In this document: piece after piece, positions 8,555 through 28,169 of the stretch
Numbering within the stretch: the stretch's first letter is position 1
How the letters are laid out: each line of letters begins with the position of its first letter
Assembly: GCA_001464915.1 (NCBI GenBank)
Contig: LNED01000038.1
Location: forward strand, 124,001 to 188,000
DNA: 64,000 bases
Source of the DNA: Sphingomonadales bacterium Ga0077531
GTDB lineage: Bacteria; Pseudomonadota; Alphaproteobacteria; Sphingomonadales; Sphingomonadaceae
Direction: 5' to 3'
Translations under genes and position numbers: made by a program
The notes under the pieces: generated by a model
What the model was told of the DNA's origin: nothing
Databases searched by the model: none
The model's input: the letters and a program-made list of their open reading frames with translations, nothing else

Positions 8555-8973
8555 GCGGCGGCGGGTCTTTGGCTGAGTGGCTGGTCAGCGCGCTGATCGT
8601 GCTGGGCGGTTCCTTTGCGTTGATCGGCAGCTGGGGGCTGGTGCGCCTGCCATCGCTGATGGAGCGGTTGCACGGGCCGACCAAGGCGACAACGCTGGGG
8701 CTGGGCGCGATGCTGGTGGCATCGGTCGCCTGGTTCCATTTGGTCGACGGCCAGTGGACCACCCACGAAATGCTGATTTCGGTGTTCCTGTTCGTGACAG
8801 CGCCCATTTCCGCCAATCTGATCGCCAAGGTGCACCTGCACCGGTTGAGGCATGGTGAGGCGGCTGAACCCGTTGGCCCGGCTGGCACACCCGCGCCGCC
8901 TTCGTCTGGCATCGATTGGGCCACCCACGAAGCCCCACACGAAGGCACACCGGGCGATTTGGTGGGAGATTGA
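8551..8973 (+). CDS. mrpG: Mrp antiporter subunit G
   Basis: The 140-residue last subunit of the Mrp operon. It has three membrane helices with the family stretch GLVRLPSLMERLHGPTKATTLG, then a hydrophilic Pro/His-rich tail of about 40 residues that is longer than in many MrpG proteins. The ATG at 8551 overlaps the mrpF stop. With subunits A(B), C, D, E and F this completes a full Mrp complex. Confidence 0.93.
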   Translation: MSGGGSLAEWLVSALIVLGGSFALIGSWGLVRLPSLMERLHGPTKATTLGLGAMLVASVAWFHLVDGQWTTHEMLISVFLFVTAPISANLIAKVHLHRLRHGEAAEPVGPAGTPAPPSSGIDWATHEAPHEGTPGDLVGD

Positions 8974-9042
8974 GGCAAAGTTTCAGGCGGCAACGTAACT
9001 TGCCTATGAAACACCCCGCCATTCCAGCAATCTGGAGCTAAA

Positions 9043-9255
9043 ATGCCACAAAGCCAGCGCGACGATGCGGCCATCAGCGAAGTCATCGAGATGGCGCTCA
9101 GCGATTCAGTCAGTTTTGCAACCATCGAGGCTGTTCACGGCCTGAAGCCCGATGCGGTGAAGGCGTTGATGCGCCAAGCACTCAAGCCGGGCAGCTACCG
9201 CGCATGGCGCAAGCGCGTGCGGCAATTTTCAGACCGCCGCGAAGTCTACAAATAG
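9043..9255 (+). CDS. Small TIGR03643/DUF2805-type protein
   Basis: A 70-residue basic protein. The helix-turn-helix-like pattern 'AISEVIEMALSD..SFATIEAVHGL', then VKALMR and the tail SYRAWRKRVR match the TIGR03643 (DUF2805) family as I know it. Its role is unknown; the fold suggests nucleic-acid binding but no function is established. It is the last core gene before the island, with its stop about 60 bp from the left attachment repeat. A GGAG ribosome-binding site is present upstream. Confidence 0.8.
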   Translation: MPQSQRDDAAISEVIEMALSDSVSFATIEAVHGLKPDAVKALMRQALKPGSYRAWRKRVRQFSDRREVYK

Positions 9256-9318
9256 CGCCGGGCTAAGGCTGGTTCCCGGTCTTGCCGCCTGCGAAATTGG
9301 CTCGGGTTTGAGGAGGGC

Positions 9319-9338
9319 TGGAGCGGGTAGCGGGAATC
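9319..9338 (+). repeat. Island attachment repeat, distal copy
   Basis: The sequence TGGAGCGGGTAGCGGGAATC is identical to 28096-28115, the 3' end of the tRNA-Gly gene (encoded CCA, acceptor strand and part of the T arm). Identity stops at base 21. Both copies are in the same orientation, as expected for tyrosine recombinase integration into a tRNA 3' end. Confidence 0.88.
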
Positions 9339-9357
9339 CGCTCCACATTTCCATGAT

Positions 9358-18424: not shown

Positions 18425-18717
18425 GCACGGTTGCGGATTCTTCTCGGTTTGATTGGTTAAGGCCAAGGAATAACCGGGTACCAATTCACCAAAATCCCCG
18501 CTTTCATTCGCCTACCGGCAGGTAATGTCAGGAGCGGACGTTTCAGTCACCGAATTGAACGACCATTCCTAGGTCGATAGGCGGCGCATTAGTCGGCTGT
18601 GATAAACGGCAGCTAACGCGTACTGTGACCCGAAACCGGACGGTCAGCTCCCCACCCAGTTCCAGTCATAGACCAGGCCGGATCGCCCTCCCGAAAGCGG
18701 ACGACGCAATGTGCACG

Positions 18718-19374
18718 TCAGCCACCGACCCCTCCCTGCTGATCAGGTATTTGCCACATTGGCTTCTGGTGCGGTGCTGCCAACGCCTTAATTTGCTCTG
18801 CCTGCGCCCGCAGTTCTGTCCGCTTCTCCGGATATTGCTCTGCCAAGGTCCGAAAATGGTCCGCCAACTGTTTCTCGATTTTGCCAAGCGAGAACCATTG
18901 CTCATTGTATCCTGCGTATGTGTCCACCAGCGCGGGTAGCCACGGAGCAAACCGAGTCGCGTCCATGGTCACTTGAGGAACACCGTCGAACTGTCCTGGA
19001 GCGAAAACCTCAAGGGTATTTTCGTTCATCCGGGCGTGCTTGTTCGATCCAAAAACACTTGCCAGCATTTCGACCGATATCGTGTGCGTGTTTCTGACTT
19101 CATCAAACTCGGCACGTTCATTTTCGAACAACTGCTTCTCGAGATTAAGGCTCTCCTTTTTAGCGCGAAGCGTGTCGACGTCACCCTGCAAGCTCGCCTT
19201 GGCGTAGCCGAGCAGCCGCTCATTGTATTCGAGCTCGCCCGCGATCTGGCCGGGGGCGATGGTGAACAGCGACTGGCGTTCTTGCTGCCCGGCGAACAGG
19301 TCCACCACCGCGTCAATCGCGGCCTTCTGGTGAGTGAGGTCGGGTTCGAAGACGAACTTCATGGTGCTGGCCAC
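18718..19374 (-). CDS. Chimeric protein: N-terminus of type III restriction subunit Res joined to a coiled-coil segment
   Basis: A 218-residue product. The first about 55 residues (MKFVFEPDLTHQKAAIDAVVDLFAG) match the start of type III Res endonucleases, which are normally about 900-1000 residues long. Before the helicase motifs the sequence switches to a charged coiled coil (DVDTLRAKKESLNLEKQLFE) and then to an unrecognised C-terminus ending in a Gly-rich tail. No Walker A, DEAD-like or PD-ExK motif is present, so it cannot act as Res. It starts 3 bp after mod. Either it is debris from recombination or a new small partner of Mod. Confidence 0.65.
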   Translation of the reverse strand: MASTMKFVFEPDLTHQKAAIDAVVDLFAGQQERQSLFTIAPGQIAGELEYNERLLGYAKASLQGDVDTLRAKKESLNLEKQLFENERAEFDEVRNTHTISVEMLASVFGSNKHARMNENTLEVFAPGQFDGVPQVTMDATRFAPWLPALVDTYAGYNEQWFSLGKIEKQLADHFRTLAEQYPEKRTELRAQAEQIKALAAPHQKPMWQIPDQQGGVGG

Positions 19375-19377
19375 GCC

Positions 19378-21354
19378 CTAGATGCTCGCGATCTTGGCGA
19401 TGCGGTCGCCGTGACGCTGGCGCAGGATCGCGGCGAGATTGGCCTTCGTGGCCGAACGGTTGTTGTCCGTGCCGAGGCCCACATCCTTGAAGTAGGTGGT
19501 GGTCTGGGTCGGATCGAGCTCGTCCAGCCAATCGGCCATGCCCTGCCCTAGCGTCTCAGCGTCGTCGGGGCCGACATCGCCGAGGCACACCATCAGCGCC
19601 CCGCCGCCGAGCGCGTGGACCGTTTGCCCGGCGATCGTGCGCCTGTCTTCGGGCATGGTGAGATCGATCCCCGTCTTGAGCAGCAGCTCGACCAGCAGGT
19701 CGTGCTCGGTGCGATCGGGCAGGACATTGTCGACCGCATCGAGGATGCTGGCTTCGAGATTGTCCGGATCGGGTTGCCACGGCTTCAGGTTGGAGGTGGC
19801 GAGCTTGTAGACGCGGAAGCCGGTGTCGATCTTCGCATCTGGATGCTCTGCACGGATTTTCTGCCCGGCGCGGCGGAGGCGCTCCTTGGTCAGCTCGGCG
19901 ATATTGAGCGGTTTGCCCAGCTTAGCGCAAATACTTGCGGGTATCGCTTGTTCGCGTTTTTCGGGGTCGAGGGGCTCTGGCAGCTGCACAAGGAGGTAAC
20001 GTCGACTCCCTCCATCCTCGGCATTCCTTGCCATCACCGCGTGACCGGTAGTGCCTGAACCAGCAAAGAAGTCCATAATCACGGACTCTCGGTCCGCGAA
20101 AATTGTGGCCAATCTAGAAATAAGTTCGGTAGGCTTGGGGTTAGAGAAGCCACCTTCGCCGATGAGCTCCTTTACCTCAATGCTTGCTTTCTTATTTCCT
20201 GAAATATCGTCGAAAAGTGGTGAAGGCTTCTTCGTCCTGCCTTCAAGATAGTATTTTACATAGGGCTTCCACCCATCGTCTGACTCCTTCCAGACGATAA
20301 GGTCGTTTTTCATGGCGTCTTCGTATTTTTCGCGACCGAACCTCCACCGACTGTCATACCCAGTCGGGCCCACGGGGAATACTGGAGAACCATCGGGGGC
20401 CTTGACTTCATAATACATCGAGGGGCGATCTTCCCTCCGATCCGCATTGCCGGTCTTTCGAAGCTGCAAGATCGAGAAATTCCCTCGGCTATCTGTCCCG
20501 GTGAATCGAGCTTGATCCCCTTCATCGAGCGGAAGGCCGTGAATAACATAATCGTCAGTCCGGCTGTAACAAAGAACGTAGTCGAAAGAACTACCGAGGC
20601 CGCCACTATCTTGTCCCGTTGTTGTTCCAGTCGCTCTTACGATTGTTCCAACGTAATTCTCTTCTCCAAATTCTTGGTCAAGCACGTCCTTGAGGCTGTA
20701 TATTTCTCGGTCGTCAATACTGACGCAGATGACGCCATCTTCCGCGAGTAACTCACGGGCCAGACTCATGCGCGGCGCAATCATGTTCAGCCACTCGGTA
20801 TGAAGGCGCCCTCGCGCCTCTCTCTTTGACGTGGCTGCCGCACCTAAATCGTTCTTTTGACCAGTAAGACTTAAGTAATTCTGTATGCTATTTCCGAAAT
20901 CATCGGGATATACAAAGTCATTTCCAGTATTATACGGCGGGTCGATGTAAATCAGCTTCACTTTGCCCGCATAGGATCGGCGCAGCAGCTTGAGCACCTC
21001 GAGGTTGTCGCCCTCGATCATCAGGTTCTGGGTTGTGTCCCAGTCCACGCTGTCCTCGGGCGCGGGGCGAAGGGTGCCGAGGCTCGGTGTCATGGCAAAG
21101 GCGCGCGCCCGGCGCTTGCCCTTCCAGTTCAGCCCGTAACGCTCCTCGCCCTCTTCCACCTCGTCGCCGAGCAGCTGGCGCAGCACATCGAAATCGACCT
21201 TCCCATCGGTCACGATCTGCGGGAACAGCGCCTTCAGCCGCTCGACATTCTCCCGCACCAGATCCCCGCTTCCGGCCGCCTCGTCTTCGCGGGTGATCTT
21301 GGGAATGAGGCTTTCGCCGTCTGCGGTGGTATCGGTCATGCTCGGTCCCGTCAT
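19378..21354 (-). CDS. mod: Type III-like site-specific DNA methyltransferase (Mod)
   Basis: A 658-residue beta-class amino-methyltransferase. Motif IV is DPPYNTGNDF (138-147) and motif I is DFFAGSGTTGHAV (428-440), the order expected for type III Mod proteins. The region between them is the target-recognition part. The ATG at 21354 overlaps the upstream stop (ATGA); a second ATG at 21339 is also possible, and the frame upstream to 21441 lies in the neighbour. The central part is clearly more AT-rich than both ends, a sign of recognition-domain exchange. The partner Res gene next door is reduced to its N-terminus. Confidence 0.92.
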   Translation of the reverse strand: MTGPSMTDTTADGESLIPKITREDEAAGSGDLVRENVERLKALFPQIVTDGKVDFDVLRQLLGDEVEEGEERYGLNWKGKRRARAFAMTPSLGTLRPAPEDSVDWDTTQNLMIEGDNLEVLKLLRRSYAGKVKLIYIDPPYNTGNDFVYPDDFGNSIQNYLSLTGQKNDLGAAATSKREARGRLHTEWLNMIAPRMSLARELLAEDGVICVSIDDREIYSLKDVLDQEFGEENYVGTIVRATGTTTGQDSGGLGSSFDYVLCYSRTDDYVIHGLPLDEGDQARFTGTDSRGNFSILQLRKTGNADRREDRPSMYYEVKAPDGSPVFPVGPTGYDSRWRFGREKYEDAMKNDLIVWKESDDGWKPYVKYYLEGRTKKPSPLFDDISGNKKASIEVKELIGEGGFSNPKPTELISRLATIFADRESVIMDFFAGSGTTGHAVMARNAEDGGSRRYLLVQLPEPLDPEKREQAIPASICAKLGKPLNIAELTKERLRRAGQKIRAEHPDAKIDTGFRVYKLATSNLKPWQPDPDNLEASILDAVDNVLPDRTEHDLLVELLLKTGIDLTMPEDRRTIAGQTVHALGGGALMVCLGDVGPDDAETLGQGMADWLDELDPTQTTTYFKDVGLGTDNNRSATKANLAAILRQRHGDRIAKIASI

Positions 21355-21767
21355 GGTTTGCCCGGCCGCTGTAACGGCAGGCCATATTCTTTCAACACGC
21401 CGTTCAACTCGTCCCGGCTGCGATCCAACGCCTGCTGGCATGACGCAATCTCGCGTTCCAACCCGCTGATATGCAGCCGCAGCTTGGCGATGCGTTGTTC
21501 GGCGGACGCGGACAGCTCGCGCTTCGGCTTGGCGATCATCGGTGGCGGTGGCGGGCGCTGCCTTGCGTCCTGCTTGGCCTTAGCCCGCTTCCGGCGTTGG
21601 TGACGATTGGTCTTGCCGCTGCCCGGCAGGGGGAAGGATGGCGGCGCAGAAGCCGCTTTTGGCGGCTGCGGTTCAGGTTCGGGCTCCTCATCGCCGCCAT
21701 TGCCGAACCAGTCAGGCGTGTGCGGGCCAATGATCGTGCCACCGCCAATATAGCCCCCTTTGCCCAT
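21351..21767 (-). CDS. Small proline-rich, basic, coiled-coil protein of the defence operon
   Basis: A 138-residue protein that I do not recognise. It has a Gly-rich start, an acidic Pro-rich segment (EEPEPEPQPPK), a strongly basic patch (KTNRHQRRKRAKAKQ) and a C-terminal coiled coil (about 90-130, ISGLEREIASCQQAL). The basic patch suggests DNA or RNA contact. Its ATG overlaps the DUF4391-like gene stop (TGATG) and its stop overlaps mod, so it is firmly embedded in the operon. It is not a known type III restriction component. Confidence 0.7.
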   Translation of the reverse strand: MGKGGYIGGGTIIGPHTPDWFGNGGDEEPEPEPQPPKAASAPPSFPLPGSGKTNRHQRRKRAKAKQDARQRPPPPPMIAKPKRELSASAEQRIAKLRLHISGLEREIASCQQALDRSRDELNGVLKEYGLPLQRPGKP

Positions 21768-22531
21768 CAAGCCCCCAATTGCGCAATCAATTCATCAACT
21801 TTCAGGCGAAGATGACGCACCTGATCGCCCAATGCAACCTGCCGTGCGAGCACCTTCTCCCGCTTCGCGGCCGCCCGCGCCGTCAGCCACTCGGCTTCGG
21901 CATCGCGATACAGCGCCAGCGCTGTCCGGCGGGATGCGGGATCATCGGCGAGGCGAAAGGGCTTGCCGGTCAGGCGCGCAATCTCCAGCGCCTCGGCCCG
22001 CTCGATCAGTCCGTCATAGAGCAGCCGCAGATTGAGCCGGGGGAGCGCTGGCACAGCAAGGCTGGCAACGAAGGTAGCTGTCGCCGGTTCTGCCGTATCG
22101 ATGCAGTCCGGGGCGACGACCAGCCGCTCGACCACCATCTTGTCCTCGATCCGCTCAGCCCGGCGAAGGGGCGCAAACGATACCCGCGTGCCCGCTCCGC
22201 CCGGCAAGGCGGTCAGCAGGATGATCGGCACCGGAATGGCGCGATGGATTATGGTAAGCAGCCGCTGGGTCGGCTCGGCCCGCGCGGTGAGGGCAAGCAG
22301 TTGGGTCGCTGGCACCGGCCGTTCATCATCGATTGCGGCGGCAACGCCGATGGTCGCGGGTGACAGCGTCGCCCACCAGTCGAGCCGCTCGATCACCTTG
22401 TCGATTAGCTTGCGGTCTGCCGCGTGCGCCGCCCCGTGCTCCGCCAAAATGTCCTTCGGCAAACGCCGGGCCGGATCGCCGCCGGAGGGCAGGGCAAGAG
22501 CCTCGCGGATGGTGTGCGGCGTGACAGTCAT
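21767..22531 (-). CDS. DUF4391-like protein of a restriction-modification locus
   Basis: A 254-residue protein. The start (TIREALALPSG, then RRLPKDILAEHG and ADRKLIDKVIERLDW) and the middle (IDDERPVPATQLLALTARA, then PVPIILLT) fit the DUF4391 pattern as I recall it. The C-terminal 60 residues are a helical stretch. DUF4391 genes commonly sit between a helicase and Mod/Res in type III-like loci; their role is unknown. The ATG at 22531 is 7 bp after the helicase stop. A longer frame to 22768 lies inside the helicase. Confidence 0.75.
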   Translation of the reverse strand: MTVTPHTIREALALPSGGDPARRLPKDILAEHGAAHAADRKLIDKVIERLDWWATLSPATIGVAAAIDDERPVPATQLLALTARAEPTQRLLTIIHRAIPVPIILLTALPGGAGTRVSFAPLRRAERIEDKMVVERLVVAPDCIDTAEPATATFVASLAVPALPRLNLRLLYDGLIERAEALEIARLTGKPFRLADDPASRRTALALYRDAEAEWLTARAAAKREKVLARQVALGDQVRHLRLKVDELIAQLGA

Positions 22532-22538
22532 CGAGGCG

Positions 22539-25500
22539 CTAGCGGGGCGGCAGAATTGCGAGCCAGGTGATGACTTCCCAATCATCGAGCCCGCTTTCCC
22601 CGCCCGCGCCTTCAACCCCGCCGGTGGTGAACAGGCTTTCGACGGCGCGTTCCTCAGCCTTACCGGTAACGCCCCGGATCGCGGCGGCAAGCAGGCTCTG
22701 GTATTTGTCCATCCGACTGCCCTCGCGGGTCTCGGCATCGAACTGCTCCCAGGCCTTAGCCTGCACATCCTCTGGCGTATTGGCGGCGAGCCGCAGCAGG
22801 TCCAGCATCCGTTTGGGCTGGCTGGGCGGCAGAATCACGCGCTCGTCCTCGCCTATATATACGAGCGCGTGCGGGTATAGCGGGTCGCCCTTGGCCAGAG
22901 CGCGCTCGGCATTCGGCGTGGCGGCGCGGAGCAGGAACAGGGCGCCGGCAGGGAAATCGTCCGACGCCGCGATGGGCGAATAGGTGCCGATCATCCGCTG
23001 CGCCACCGCCTCGCGGTCTTCGGGCGAAAGGCGGGCCAGATCGAGCCGCAGGTCGTTCAATGTCAGATCGGTGATCGATACGCCGGAGGACAGATCCTCC
23101 AGATCGATCACCCGCTCCTGCAGCGATTCGAGCTGGCGGCGGCGATACTCGAGATCGTTCATGGCATCCCCTGCCTGCGTCTCGATCAAGTTTTCTTCGC
23201 CGGTGGCGGATACATCGAGCAGCATCATCTTGCCGGATACGCTGCGCTGCAGGCCGATGTAGCTGTCGAGGTCCATGTTGGGCCAGAAATTGACCAGCTG
23301 GATCACGTCGTTCGGCGAACCGAGCCGGTCGACGCGTCCGAATCGCTGGACGATACGGACCGGGTTCCAATGGATGTCGTAATTTACCACGCAGTCGCAG
23401 TCCTGAAGGTTCTGGCCTTCGGATATACAGTCAGTGGCGATGATCAGGTCGACCTCCAGCTCCTGCGCCAGCGCTTCCGGACGGGCGCGCGATTGCGGTG
23501 AGAAGGCCGTCAGTATAGAGGCCAGGTCGGCGCGGAGCTTCATATGGGTCGTTTTGTTCCGGCCGGAGCCGGTCACCAAGGCCATCGGCCGCGGGTATGT
23601 TTCCGCCAGCTGCGCATACAGGTATTCGGCGGTGTCGGCGAACGCGGTGAACACCAGCAGCTTCACGTTGCCGCCGTTGTAGGGGGCAGACAGCTTGTCT
23701 GCGATGAGCCGCTTGAGGTCAGCCAGCTTCGCATCTTGCGCTGGCCCAACATTCTGCGCTTGGCGGAGCAGGCGCAGCAAGCGCTCCCTGTCCTCCGCCA
23801 GATCCTGCCGCCACCTCACGAGGTCGGCATCGGTAAGAAGGACGCGGATGTTCTTGCCGACGCCTAGCTGTTCGAAGGTCGGATCATCATCCTCGAGATC
23901 GTCAATCGACGGTGCGTCGATGCTTTCATCGTGGGAATCGATGCGGCCGATCAGGTCGTCGACCGCCGCCAATTGCCGTTCGATGGTCAGCGCAAAGGCA
24001 TGAACGGAGCTCTCCATGCGCTTGAGCAGGTTGACGCGCATGAGCGCAACGAGGCTCTCTTCGCGGTCAAGCTGGCGGAATACGCTGGCGCCCGAGCCCG
24101 TCTGCTGGCTGTAGCGCCGATCATACGCCTCGCGCCGGTCCTCCATCACATATCGCAGCGGCGCGAAGGCGGCGAGCTTGAGGCGCCGTATTTCGTTATT
24201 CACCTCGCCGATGGCGGGAAATAGGCCGGTGATGTCGACGTCCGAGTAGATATTCTTCGGCTGCAGCCGCGTGGGGAAGGTTCCGGTCTCTTCCGTCCCG
24301 TAGTATTTTTCGATGTGCTTTCGGCTGCGCGCGATGGTGAGCAGGTCAAGCAGGCGGAAGTAGTCGAAGCCCAGCATCTCGAGAAGCTTTGCGGGCGTTC
24401 TGTGCGCGTCCGGTAATTCCTGCCATCGGTTGAATTGGCCCTGAGCTATTCGCACGGTGCCAGCGATACTCGGCACGCCATGCCCGGACAGTGCGCTATC
24501 GTTGCCCTCCGTCGCAAACGCGATCTGGTTCTTCAAATCATTGAGCCGGTTGTTGACCGGCGTCGCCGACAGCATCAGCACCTTTGTCTTGACCCCGGCC
24601 TTCACGACAGCGTTAAGCAGCTTATCGTAGCGGCTCTCCCGCTCGCCCTTGCCGGCTGGACGGTTCCGAAAATTATGGCTCTCGTCGATCACCACCAGAT
24701 CGTAATTGCCCCAGTTGATGTGGGTTAGGTCCATTTCGCCCGACTGGCCCTGTTCGCGGGAGAGGTCGGTGTGGTTCAGCACATCGAACGAAAACCGGTC
24801 GCCAACGAGCATGTTGCGCACGTCGTTCTGCGTCCAGAGCGTCCAATTTTCGCGCAGCCGCTTGGGAGCCAGCACCAGCACGCGCGCATTCCTGAGCTCG
24901 AAATACTTGATGACGGCGAGCGCCTCAAAGGTTTTGCCCAAGCCAACGCTGTCAGCCAGGATGCAGCCGCCGAAGCGCTGAAGCTTGTCGATCGCGCCGA
25001 TCACCCCATCGCGCTGGAAGCGGTAGAGCTTCGACCAGATGGTCGTCTCGCGTATCCCCGTCGCCGGATCAACGATCCGATCTTCGTTGGTGGCTTCCTC
25101 CATCTCGGCGAAAAGCTGAAACAGGGACTGGAGGTAAACGGCATCGGCGGGATGCTGCGCTTGCCCGTCGGCAAGGGCAATCCGCAGCCGGGCGACCGCA
25201 TCACCATCGGGATTGGCCTGCCGCCACAGCTCTCGGAACCATTGCTGGAGCTGCTCGATTTCCGCAGGGTTCTGCGCGACCTGTATCAAGCCAAGAGCAT
25301 CTTGCGGCGCGATACCAAGGCCGCCAGTCGTCACCGGGCAATTTCCGATCAGGGCGAAATCGCCGCTAGCGAGAAAAGATTGAGCCAGTGGCAGCTTGGT
25401 TTGCCGCACTTGCGCCTGTGCGATCACGTCAGCAAGACTTCGACAGAGCGCCCGGGTCTCAAGGCGATTGCGACGATTCCGGTCGTTGCCAGTGCCGAAA

Positions 25501-25682
25501 AGGCCTAGCCCATCGTGTCCGGCTCCGAGCAGTAAGCGCCCCAGCTTCCCTCCGGCGCGCTTCCCGAACACCTCAGTCGCGCCGAATACGGAAAGGTCGG
25601 TGACCATGCCGTCAAGTTCGCCGTCCGTTCCCGTGATCCAGTCAATCGCTCGATGTCGACCTGTTGTATCAATGACCTGCAA
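22539..25682 (-). CDS. SNF2-type helicase with a degenerate phospholipase D-like N-terminus
   Basis: A protein of up to 1047 residues. Residues about 70-155 resemble the end of PLD-like domains (DRNRRNRLETRALCRSLAD, then ALIGNCPVTTGGLGI and AEIEQLQQWFRELW), but no HxK catalytic motif is present. The helicase core has Walker A DSVGLGKT (244-251), DESH (333-336), SATPVNNR and motif VI VQRFGRVDRLGS. The family often accompanies DUF4391 and type III Mod/Res. The start is uncertain: TTG at 25682 has GGAG about 8 bp upstream, while ATG at 25607 is the alternative. It is probably the first gene of the operon, lying about 87 bp after the integrase. Confidence 0.88.
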   Translation of the reverse strand: MQVIDTTGRHRAIDWITGTDGELDGMVTDLSVFGATEVFGKRAGGKLGRLLLGAGHDGLGLFGTGNDRNRRNRLETRALCRSLADVIAQAQVRQTKLPLAQSFLASGDFALIGNCPVTTGGLGIAPQDALGLIQVAQNPAEIEQLQQWFRELWRQANPDGDAVARLRIALADGQAQHPADAVYLQSLFQLFAEMEEATNEDRIVDPATGIRETTIWSKLYRFQRDGVIGAIDKLQRFGGCILADSVGLGKTFEALAVIKYFELRNARVLVLAPKRLRENWTLWTQNDVRNMLVGDRFSFDVLNHTDLSREQGQSGEMDLTHINWGNYDLVVIDESHNFRNRPAGKGERESRYDKLLNAVVKAGVKTKVLMLSATPVNNRLNDLKNQIAFATEGNDSALSGHGVPSIAGTVRIAQGQFNRWQELPDAHRTPAKLLEMLGFDYFRLLDLLTIARSRKHIEKYYGTEETGTFPTRLQPKNIYSDVDITGLFPAIGEVNNEIRRLKLAAFAPLRYVMEDRREAYDRRYSQQTGSGASVFRQLDREESLVALMRVNLLKRMESSVHAFALTIERQLAAVDDLIGRIDSHDESIDAPSIDDLEDDDPTFEQLGVGKNIRVLLTDADLVRWRQDLAEDRERLLRLLRQAQNVGPAQDAKLADLKRLIADKLSAPYNGGNVKLLVFTAFADTAEYLYAQLAETYPRPMALVTGSGRNKTTHMKLRADLASILTAFSPQSRARPEALAQELEVDLIIATDCISEGQNLQDCDCVVNYDIHWNPVRIVQRFGRVDRLGSPNDVIQLVNFWPNMDLDSYIGLQRSVSGKMMLLDVSATGEENLIETQAGDAMNDLEYRRRQLESLQERVIDLEDLSSGVSITDLTLNDLRLDLARLSPEDREAVAQRMIGTYSPIAASDDFPAGALFLLRAATPNAERALAKGDPLYPHALVYIGEDERVILPPSQPKRMLDLLRLAANTPEDVQAKAWEQFDAETREGSRMDKYQSLLAAAIRGVTGKAEERAVESLFTTGGVEGAGGESGLDDWEVITWLAILPPR

Positions 25683-28095: not shown

Positions 28096-28169
<74 letters not shown>

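Follow-up and report, generated by a model that had tools for sequence, protein, structure and literature searches.

A four-gene type III restriction operon with a pseudo-PLD helicase and DUF4391, most probably decayed, on a tRNA-Gly island of Sphingomonadales bacterium Ga0077531

In the classical type III restriction-modification (RM) systems EcoP15I and EcoPI, mod, which encodes a beta-class amino-methyltransferase, is followed by res, which encodes a superfamily 2 (SF2) ATPase with a C-terminal endonuclease. Such enzymes methylate one strand and cleave two-site DNA at the expense of ATP. Eco86II and BspHIV are helicase-linked N4-methylcytosine (m4C) type III systems in which a gene for an SNF2/SF2 helicase-like protein lies 5' of mod and res; the extra helicase of Eco86II is dispensable both for methylation and for cleavage in vitro (PMC8259958). 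We analyzed 64,000 nucleotides of Sphingomonadales bacterium Ga0077531 (contig LNED01000038.1, positions 124,001 to 188,000; hereafter, the window), which contain a five-gene operon with a type III Mod at 18718-25682, entirely on the minus strand. We conclude, with a probability of roughly 0.9, that this locus is a decayed four-gene extended type III RM operon (pseudo-PLD SNF2 helicase, DUF4391, Mod, and Res) on a tRNA-Gly island. The parent system is a conserved variant of type III restriction that is apparently undescribed.

The system shares with EcoP15I and EcoPI a homologous Mod, the mod-res order and, in intact relatives, Res. Unlike them, it has two extra conserved genes, for the helicase and for DUF4391, before mod, and the window copy has lost Res. 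An earlier note, made from the sequence of the window alone, had described five genes linked by overlaps or by gaps of 7 bp or less, and this was confirmed: read 5' to 3', the genes are joined by a 7-bp gap, two 4-bp overlaps, and a 3-bp gap (Table 1). Mod and the helicase are complete, as the note had stated. The helicase has the length of its relatives and keeps its motor motifs in an alignment with 14 of them, and the 658-residue Mod is open and as long as the Mod proteins of related loci. Mod is a beta-class amino-methyltransferase of the type III kind, matching the solved Mod structure 6k0w at 3.5e-70 and EcoP15I Mod at 2.7e-55; it carries DPPYNTG and FAGSGTT, which we take to be its catalytic motifs. 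The small protein encoded between DUF4391 and Mod belongs to no family in the Pfam or PADLOC scan. Clear homologues of it beside DUF4391 were found only in genomes G340 and G121 out of 376 searched, and seven further matches were weak.

The earlier note was also correct that Res is absent except for its N terminus, since only some 58 to 73 residues of the last open reading frame (ORF) of the operon match Res. Residues 5-73 correspond to positions 1-74 of a 989-position Res profile, and residues 2-59 are 95% identical to the intact 1,004-aa Res of G340, a genome of the same genus, with no match beyond. The remaining ~160 residues of the 218-aa ORF derive from another gene. At the DNA level, the Res match ends at 19199 and the other match starts at 19200, giving 2 bp of microhomology at the junction. 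The second match covers 567 bp at 96.8% identity; in G369 (same genus), this stretch is the 3' portion of an open frame of its own, 344 codons long, together with flanking sequence. The coiled-coil gene to which this tail belongs has no Pfam family and no plasmid match, and G369 is the only other carrier among 396 genomes of the order. The fusion of Res to the tail is absent from all other genomes of that sample. These alignments show that the fusion is a deletion scar: Res was lost after approximately residue 58, and the stump was joined to the tail of the coiled-coil gene. A functional short Res-like subunit was considered and rejected, both on account of this scar and because G369 has the tail in a gene of its own. 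A second Res elsewhere in the genome was likewise rejected, as none was found at an E value of at most 1e-20.

The window copy thus has three of the four genes complete and in order, whereas Res is reduced to residues 2-59 out of 1,004 and has neither the SF2 ATPase nor the C-terminal endonuclease. Restriction by this copy is therefore not expected, and its Mod, judged from sequence, is probably an orphan methylase that still modifies its one-strand site, unless it requires Res as two characterized type III Mods did in Escherichia coli (PMC8259958).

The four-gene order recurred in every sample. A search of the 396 genomes of the order, an even draw from a larger group, gave a helicase match at an E value of at most 1e-40 in 22 of them: the window, a remnant in G369, 14 counted loci, and six others (G310, G296, G209, G068, G266, and G023) that show other partners, a weak or truncated match, or a short contig. 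All 14 counted loci have the order helicase-DUF4391-Mod-Res, with a Res frame of at least 988 aa in each; one of them (L038, in G340) has an in-frame stop within Mod. The short Res of the five-gene order, whose recurrence in unrelated strains the note had proposed as the sign of a real system, occurred in none of the other genomes of this sample.

We also scanned one genome per species from 84,980 species and used the best 80 of 580 confirmed helicase loci, which form a biased top set. DUF4391 was present in 70 of the 71 loci with 1 kb of sequence after the helicase, and Mod in 63 of 63 with 2.5 kb after DUF4391. Fifty-nine loci extended 4 kb beyond Mod; 54 had a full Res in order, two were cut by contig ends (L081 and L133), one had a split Res (L096), and two had none (L095 and L119). 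The hosts of these best 80 loci, many of them metagenome bins, belong to Pseudomonadota, Bacillota, Bacteroidota, Actinomycetota, Verrucomicrobiota, Chloroflexota, Planctomycetota, and other phyla, and one is an archaeon.

A third sample was chosen independently of the helicase, by searching 299 genomes of the phylum for PF14335, the DUF4391 family. It was found in 19 of them (18 of 298 without the window's own genome) and in none of 14 control genomes. Nineteen regions from the 18 other genomes were counted by hand; the sample shares at least one locus with the species scan (L185 is L062, with an identical Res). Where 1 kb of sequence was available, the helicase always lay upstream (14 of 14 regions). 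A Mod gene followed downstream in 17 of 18, being split in L187 and missing only in L189, and where 4 kb remained beyond Mod, Res was always present (13 of 13). Twelve of these Res frames reach at least 988 aa; that of L192 has 907 aa and lacks profile positions 1-93. All three intact Res proteins scanned contained ResIII and RE_endonuc domains, hence the ATPase and endonuclease of type III enzymes, and the Res of G340 matched EcoP15I Res at 6.2e-48. The window DUF4391 protein had no match at an E value of at most 0.001 in 50,697 phage records.

On plasmids, the helicase was present in 135 of 72,556 records, four of which were inspected. Plasmids of Phaeobacter, Lactococcus, and Acinetobacter gerneri carry an annotated helicase, DUF4391, methyltransferase, and DEAD/DEAH (Res-like) gene in order, and in an Acetobacter plasmid (L209), Res is split by an annotated IS1380 element. 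On the A. gerneri plasmid pC-SY-46 (L211, 3896-20436), genes resembling TnsA, a transposase, TniB, and TniQ immediately precede the four genes, which look like the cargo of a Tn7-like element.

Given full-length Res in 14 of 14, 54 of 59, and 12 of 13 loci of the three samples and no other Res in the genome, we regard the window copy as broken; of the two options in the earlier note, loss of restriction with retention of the methylase is the one that stands.

The island supports the same conclusion. In G707 and G706, the two genomes tabulated, only 17 and 55 bp, respectively, separate the flanks of the window, which implies an insertion of ~19 kb. The left flank is homologous only as far as about 8971, and 8972-9318 may therefore hold a second, small insertion; these ~350 bp have partial matches elsewhere in other genomes and are perhaps the remnant of an older insertion. 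In G369, a remnant of the island lies at the same tRNA-Gly, and the 169 bp from the tRNA are 96% identical to the window. There, a helicase-Mod deletion has brought ~85 codons of the helicase up against the end of Mod; Res follows up to residue 303, and then the same coiled-coil gene. Two copies of one island are therefore broken at different points of Res (~58 and ~303), which also speaks for decay. Alternatively, the break in the window could be a second deletion inside one like that of G369. The note's test for a broken copy, that close loci always carry a full-length Res, gave the expected result in all 14 loci of the order but not in the closest island, G369, which is itself broken elsewhere in Res. 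Another genome, G119, retains only the last ~214 residues of Res. The closest relative with an intact Res is L038 (12401-14365), whose Mod has the in-frame stop, and that copy thus looks broken in the other subunit.

Table 1. Features of the operon and its island (positions counted from the first nucleotide of the window)
Feature	Positions	Strand	Remarks
SNF2 helicase with pseudo-PLD N terminus, 1047 aa	22539..25682	-	TTG start; Pfam SNF2/Helicase_C; PADLOC C3a139 1.7e-104
DUF4391 protein, 254 aa, signature gene of the system	21767..22531	-	PF14335 1.3e-30
Small protein, 139 aa, variable accessory slot	21351..21770	-	4-bp overlap with each neighbor
Type III Mod DNA methyltransferase, 658 aa	19378..21354	-	PF01555 9.4e-30; PADLOC MTase_III 7.3e-194
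Short Res-like ORF, 218 aa	18718..19374	-	Res part only at the N terminus
Res remnant, first ~58 residues	19199..19374	-	95% identity to residues 2-59 of G340 Res
Coiled-coil gene tail (ORF to 18718) and ~80 bp beyond	18634..19200	-	567 bp, 96.8% to G369 (L037)
Island integrase, 721 aa	25769..27934	-	DUF6538; phage-integrase match under curated cutoff
tRNA-Gly (TCC), island integration site	28096..28169	-	Same tRNA and 96% identical adjoining sequence at the G369 remnant island
Partial copy of tRNA-Gly 3' end, probable far attachment site	9319..9341	-	20/23 bases; 0 in 100 shuffles

The other option of the earlier note was a remodeled Mod-dependent defense system that needs no nuclease-bearing Res and in which the helicase, DUF4391, the small protein, and the short Res-like product act together. 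In its favor, four of the five genes are tightly coupled and remain open at full length, and helicase and DUF4391 are rarely separated across phyla, yet we consider such a system very improbable. The fusion occurs in no other genome of the order sample, Res is full length in nearly all loci of the three samples, and the tail belongs to a separate gene in G369. Among the loci with a missing or split Res, besides L209 with its IS1380 element, L095 has a Fic-like gene (resembling the Fic of L077) and a long ORF, presumably a Tn3-type transposase, after Mod instead of Res, and L096 has Res split into several genes, with ~2 kb inside it. L119 is the unexplained case. The five linked genes of the note are real as a unit of the window, but the slot of the small protein, whose clear homologues are confined to two genomes, is not constant, and most of the Res-like ORF is foreign. 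An apparently undescribed system is indeed present, in the form of the intact four-gene parent and not of the five-gene version.

Alternatively, Mod may have been kept as an orphan by selection, for gene regulation or for protection against another Res, with helicase and DUF4391 as passengers. We find this unlikely, though not so far-fetched as a remodeled system. The methyltransferase is full length and retains its catalytic motifs. Several type III Mods can methylate alone (PMC8259958). The ratio of nonsynonymous to synonymous substitution rates (dN/dS) between the window and G340 points the other way: the helicase is the most constrained (0.08), and constraint is weakest for Mod (0.38) and for the small protein (0.45), although these values mainly reflect the time before the loss of Res and are no proof of present selection. 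Moreover, Mod itself is interrupted in G340. That the truncation is an assembly error is hardly credible; the genome is a draft of 48 contigs, but the junction is internal to a 196-kb contig, and the fused tail and downstream flank recur in the same island of G369.

Several observations weigh against a decayed four-gene RM operon. The helicase, DUF4391, small protein, and Mod genes of the window are all open and full length, so either Res was lost recently or the remaining genes are retained for some purpose. The archaeal locus L119 has no Res within ~4 kb after Mod, L064 has the helicase with no DUF4391 in 1.4 kb, and in L189 (a contig of G417), a DUF4391 gene at the contig edge has no Mod or Res in the 9.6 kb downstream. 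In L052 and L053, both from the order, a helicase of the same family is followed by ORFs of ~1,340 and ~530 aa that replace DUF4391, Mod, and Res, possibly as another system; the helicase is thus not bound to type III systems.

With Eco86II the intact operon has in common a helicase-like gene 5' of mod and res. The locus of E. coli NCTC86, which we take to be Eco86II, encodes SNF2, Mod, and Res proteins of 963, 1,040, and 1,126 aa but no DUF4391, which here stands between the helicase and mod. Similarity to the Eco86II helicase is confined to the motor core (32-35%) and does not amount to full-length homology. Mod agrees with its Eco86II counterpart at 25% over 414 columns, and the match between Res of G340 and Eco86II Res is not significant (BLASTP E value of 0.006 over 155 residues), so that a common Res family is not indicated. 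Mod and Res of the four-gene system are nearer to EcoP15I. E. coli LS45 (L217, 8808-19353) has a gene annotated as mads1 ahead of genes for SNF2, Abi, AIPR, a methyltransferase, and DEAD/DEAH; this arrangement links the Eco86II-type helicase to the MADS name.

The window helicase matches the PADLOC model C3a139, "HKD+Snf2," over residues 141-1025. Contrary to that name, the catalytic pattern HxKx4D occurs in none of 74 aligned N termini of the four-gene-system helicase; no mention of C3a139 was found in the open literature searched. A SNF2 core is also common to DISARM DrmD and to the PLD-helicase NF042964, but the window helicase belongs to neither family, scoring 145 bits against a curated cutoff of 610 and 123 bits against one of 1,100, respectively, and HxKx4D, a feature of the latter, is absent. 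The four-gene system is not described in the open literature searched, which mostly excludes subscription journals and so leaves absence from print unproven, nor in the accessible parts of PMC7784981, PMC12839542, PMC10853773, PMC2292703, and PMC12458937. In the same literature, DUF4391 appeared only in a table, in the accessible part of PMC7784981, and PF14335 did not appear.

The anatomy of the helicase was studied in 73 of the 80 loci, omitting four that were cut, the near-duplicates L114 and L123, and the broken L096. The model of its N terminus (mean predicted local distance difference test [pLDDT] score of 89.9) matched PLD folds in 33 of 277 matches at an E value of at most 0.001, with modest TM-scores of ~0.4. 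The top match was human BJ-TSA-9 (4urj), which we take to be a pseudo-enzyme, and the restriction enzyme SauUSI ranked fifth. No HxKx4D was seen in any of the 80 helicase ORFs (a few are truncated at contig ends) or of the 74 N termini, the window's among them. We therefore interpret the domain as an ancestral pseudo-PLD; the note's degenerate PLD-like domain holds good, and decay peculiar to the window copy was rejected.

For DUF4391, 70 of 76 loci were used, excluding four contig-end cuts and the near-duplicates L114 and L123. The AlphaFold2 model, made from 71 sequences, has a pLDDT of 96.7, and no fold match reached an E value of 0.001 or better among 254 PDB and 457 viral matches. Helicase and DUF4391 genes overlap or lie within 60 bp in 72 of 76 loci and are at least 250 bp apart in four. 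Such wide gaps separate DUF4391 from Mod in 18 of 68 loci and Mod from Res in 26 of 61. As they are rarely split, helicase and DUF4391 are inferred to work as a pair.

The gaps between the four genes hold 59 ORFs of at least 130 aa, at least eight of which are pieces of a split Mod or helicase. Nineteen inserted ORFs were chosen by eye; 10 were scanned with Pfam and 10 with PADLOC, one being common to both. Pfam identified RhuM, GmrSD, Zeta toxin, Bro-N, Macro, Fic, DUF1016, Schlafen AlbA, and AIG2, as well as a PLD-like domain under the cutoff. PADLOC models, including PDC-S05 (RhuM genes), HEC-01A, and PDC-S06, matched six of its 10 at 1e-18 or better; of the others, one had a weak CARF match and three had none. 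The ORF matching PDC-S06 shows weak similarity to PrrC, a protein that sits inside a type I system. By analogy with PrrC, some of the inserted genes may be backup effectors. Genes of toxin or defense families stand between DUF4391, Mod, and Res in L058, L061, L062, L067, L074, L077, L081, L091, L099, L119, and L133. An AIG2/gamma-glutamylcyclotransferase-like gene lies between Mod and Res in L042 and L061 (by Pfam) and in L043 and L065 (by similar N-terminal sequence).

By homology to EcoP15I, Mod of the intact system would bind and recognize its site and methylate it, and Res would hydrolyze ATP, slide, and cut. Helicase and DUF4391 would together form a DNA-translocating or remodeling helper. 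Our best guess, a tentative one, is that this helper removes roadblocks or phage inhibitors that would keep Res from sliding and cutting; because the Eco86II helicase is dispensable in vitro, we prefer a role of this kind in vivo. Just as tentatively, the intact operon might represent a separate undescribed class of type III systems, in which a pseudo-PLD translocase and a DUF4391 protein of new fold are obligate helpers of Mod and Res, for instance in freeing roadblocks or sensing inhibitors, and a nest of backup toxins (RhuM, PrrC-related, Fic, GmrSD, Zeta, and Schlafen-type) could fire when restriction is disabled. The question raised is why a type III enzyme with a motor of its own needs a second one. 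DUF4391, a family of unassigned function, was found in this operon at every sampled locus with enough flank except L189, which makes it a testable subunit. The window itself is an example of a mobile island in the course of losing restriction.

Mod and Res related to those of the window family also occur with another partner. In L204, L205, L206, and L054, they are preceded by a different SNF2 helicase of 950-1056 aa, with no DUF4391 seen; in L206, the motor of this helicase begins near residue 60. In a quick, unrooted Res tree with long branches, these four loci fall among the DUF4391-linked Res proteins and Eco86II Res lies far off. Perhaps the helicase was swapped in these loci.

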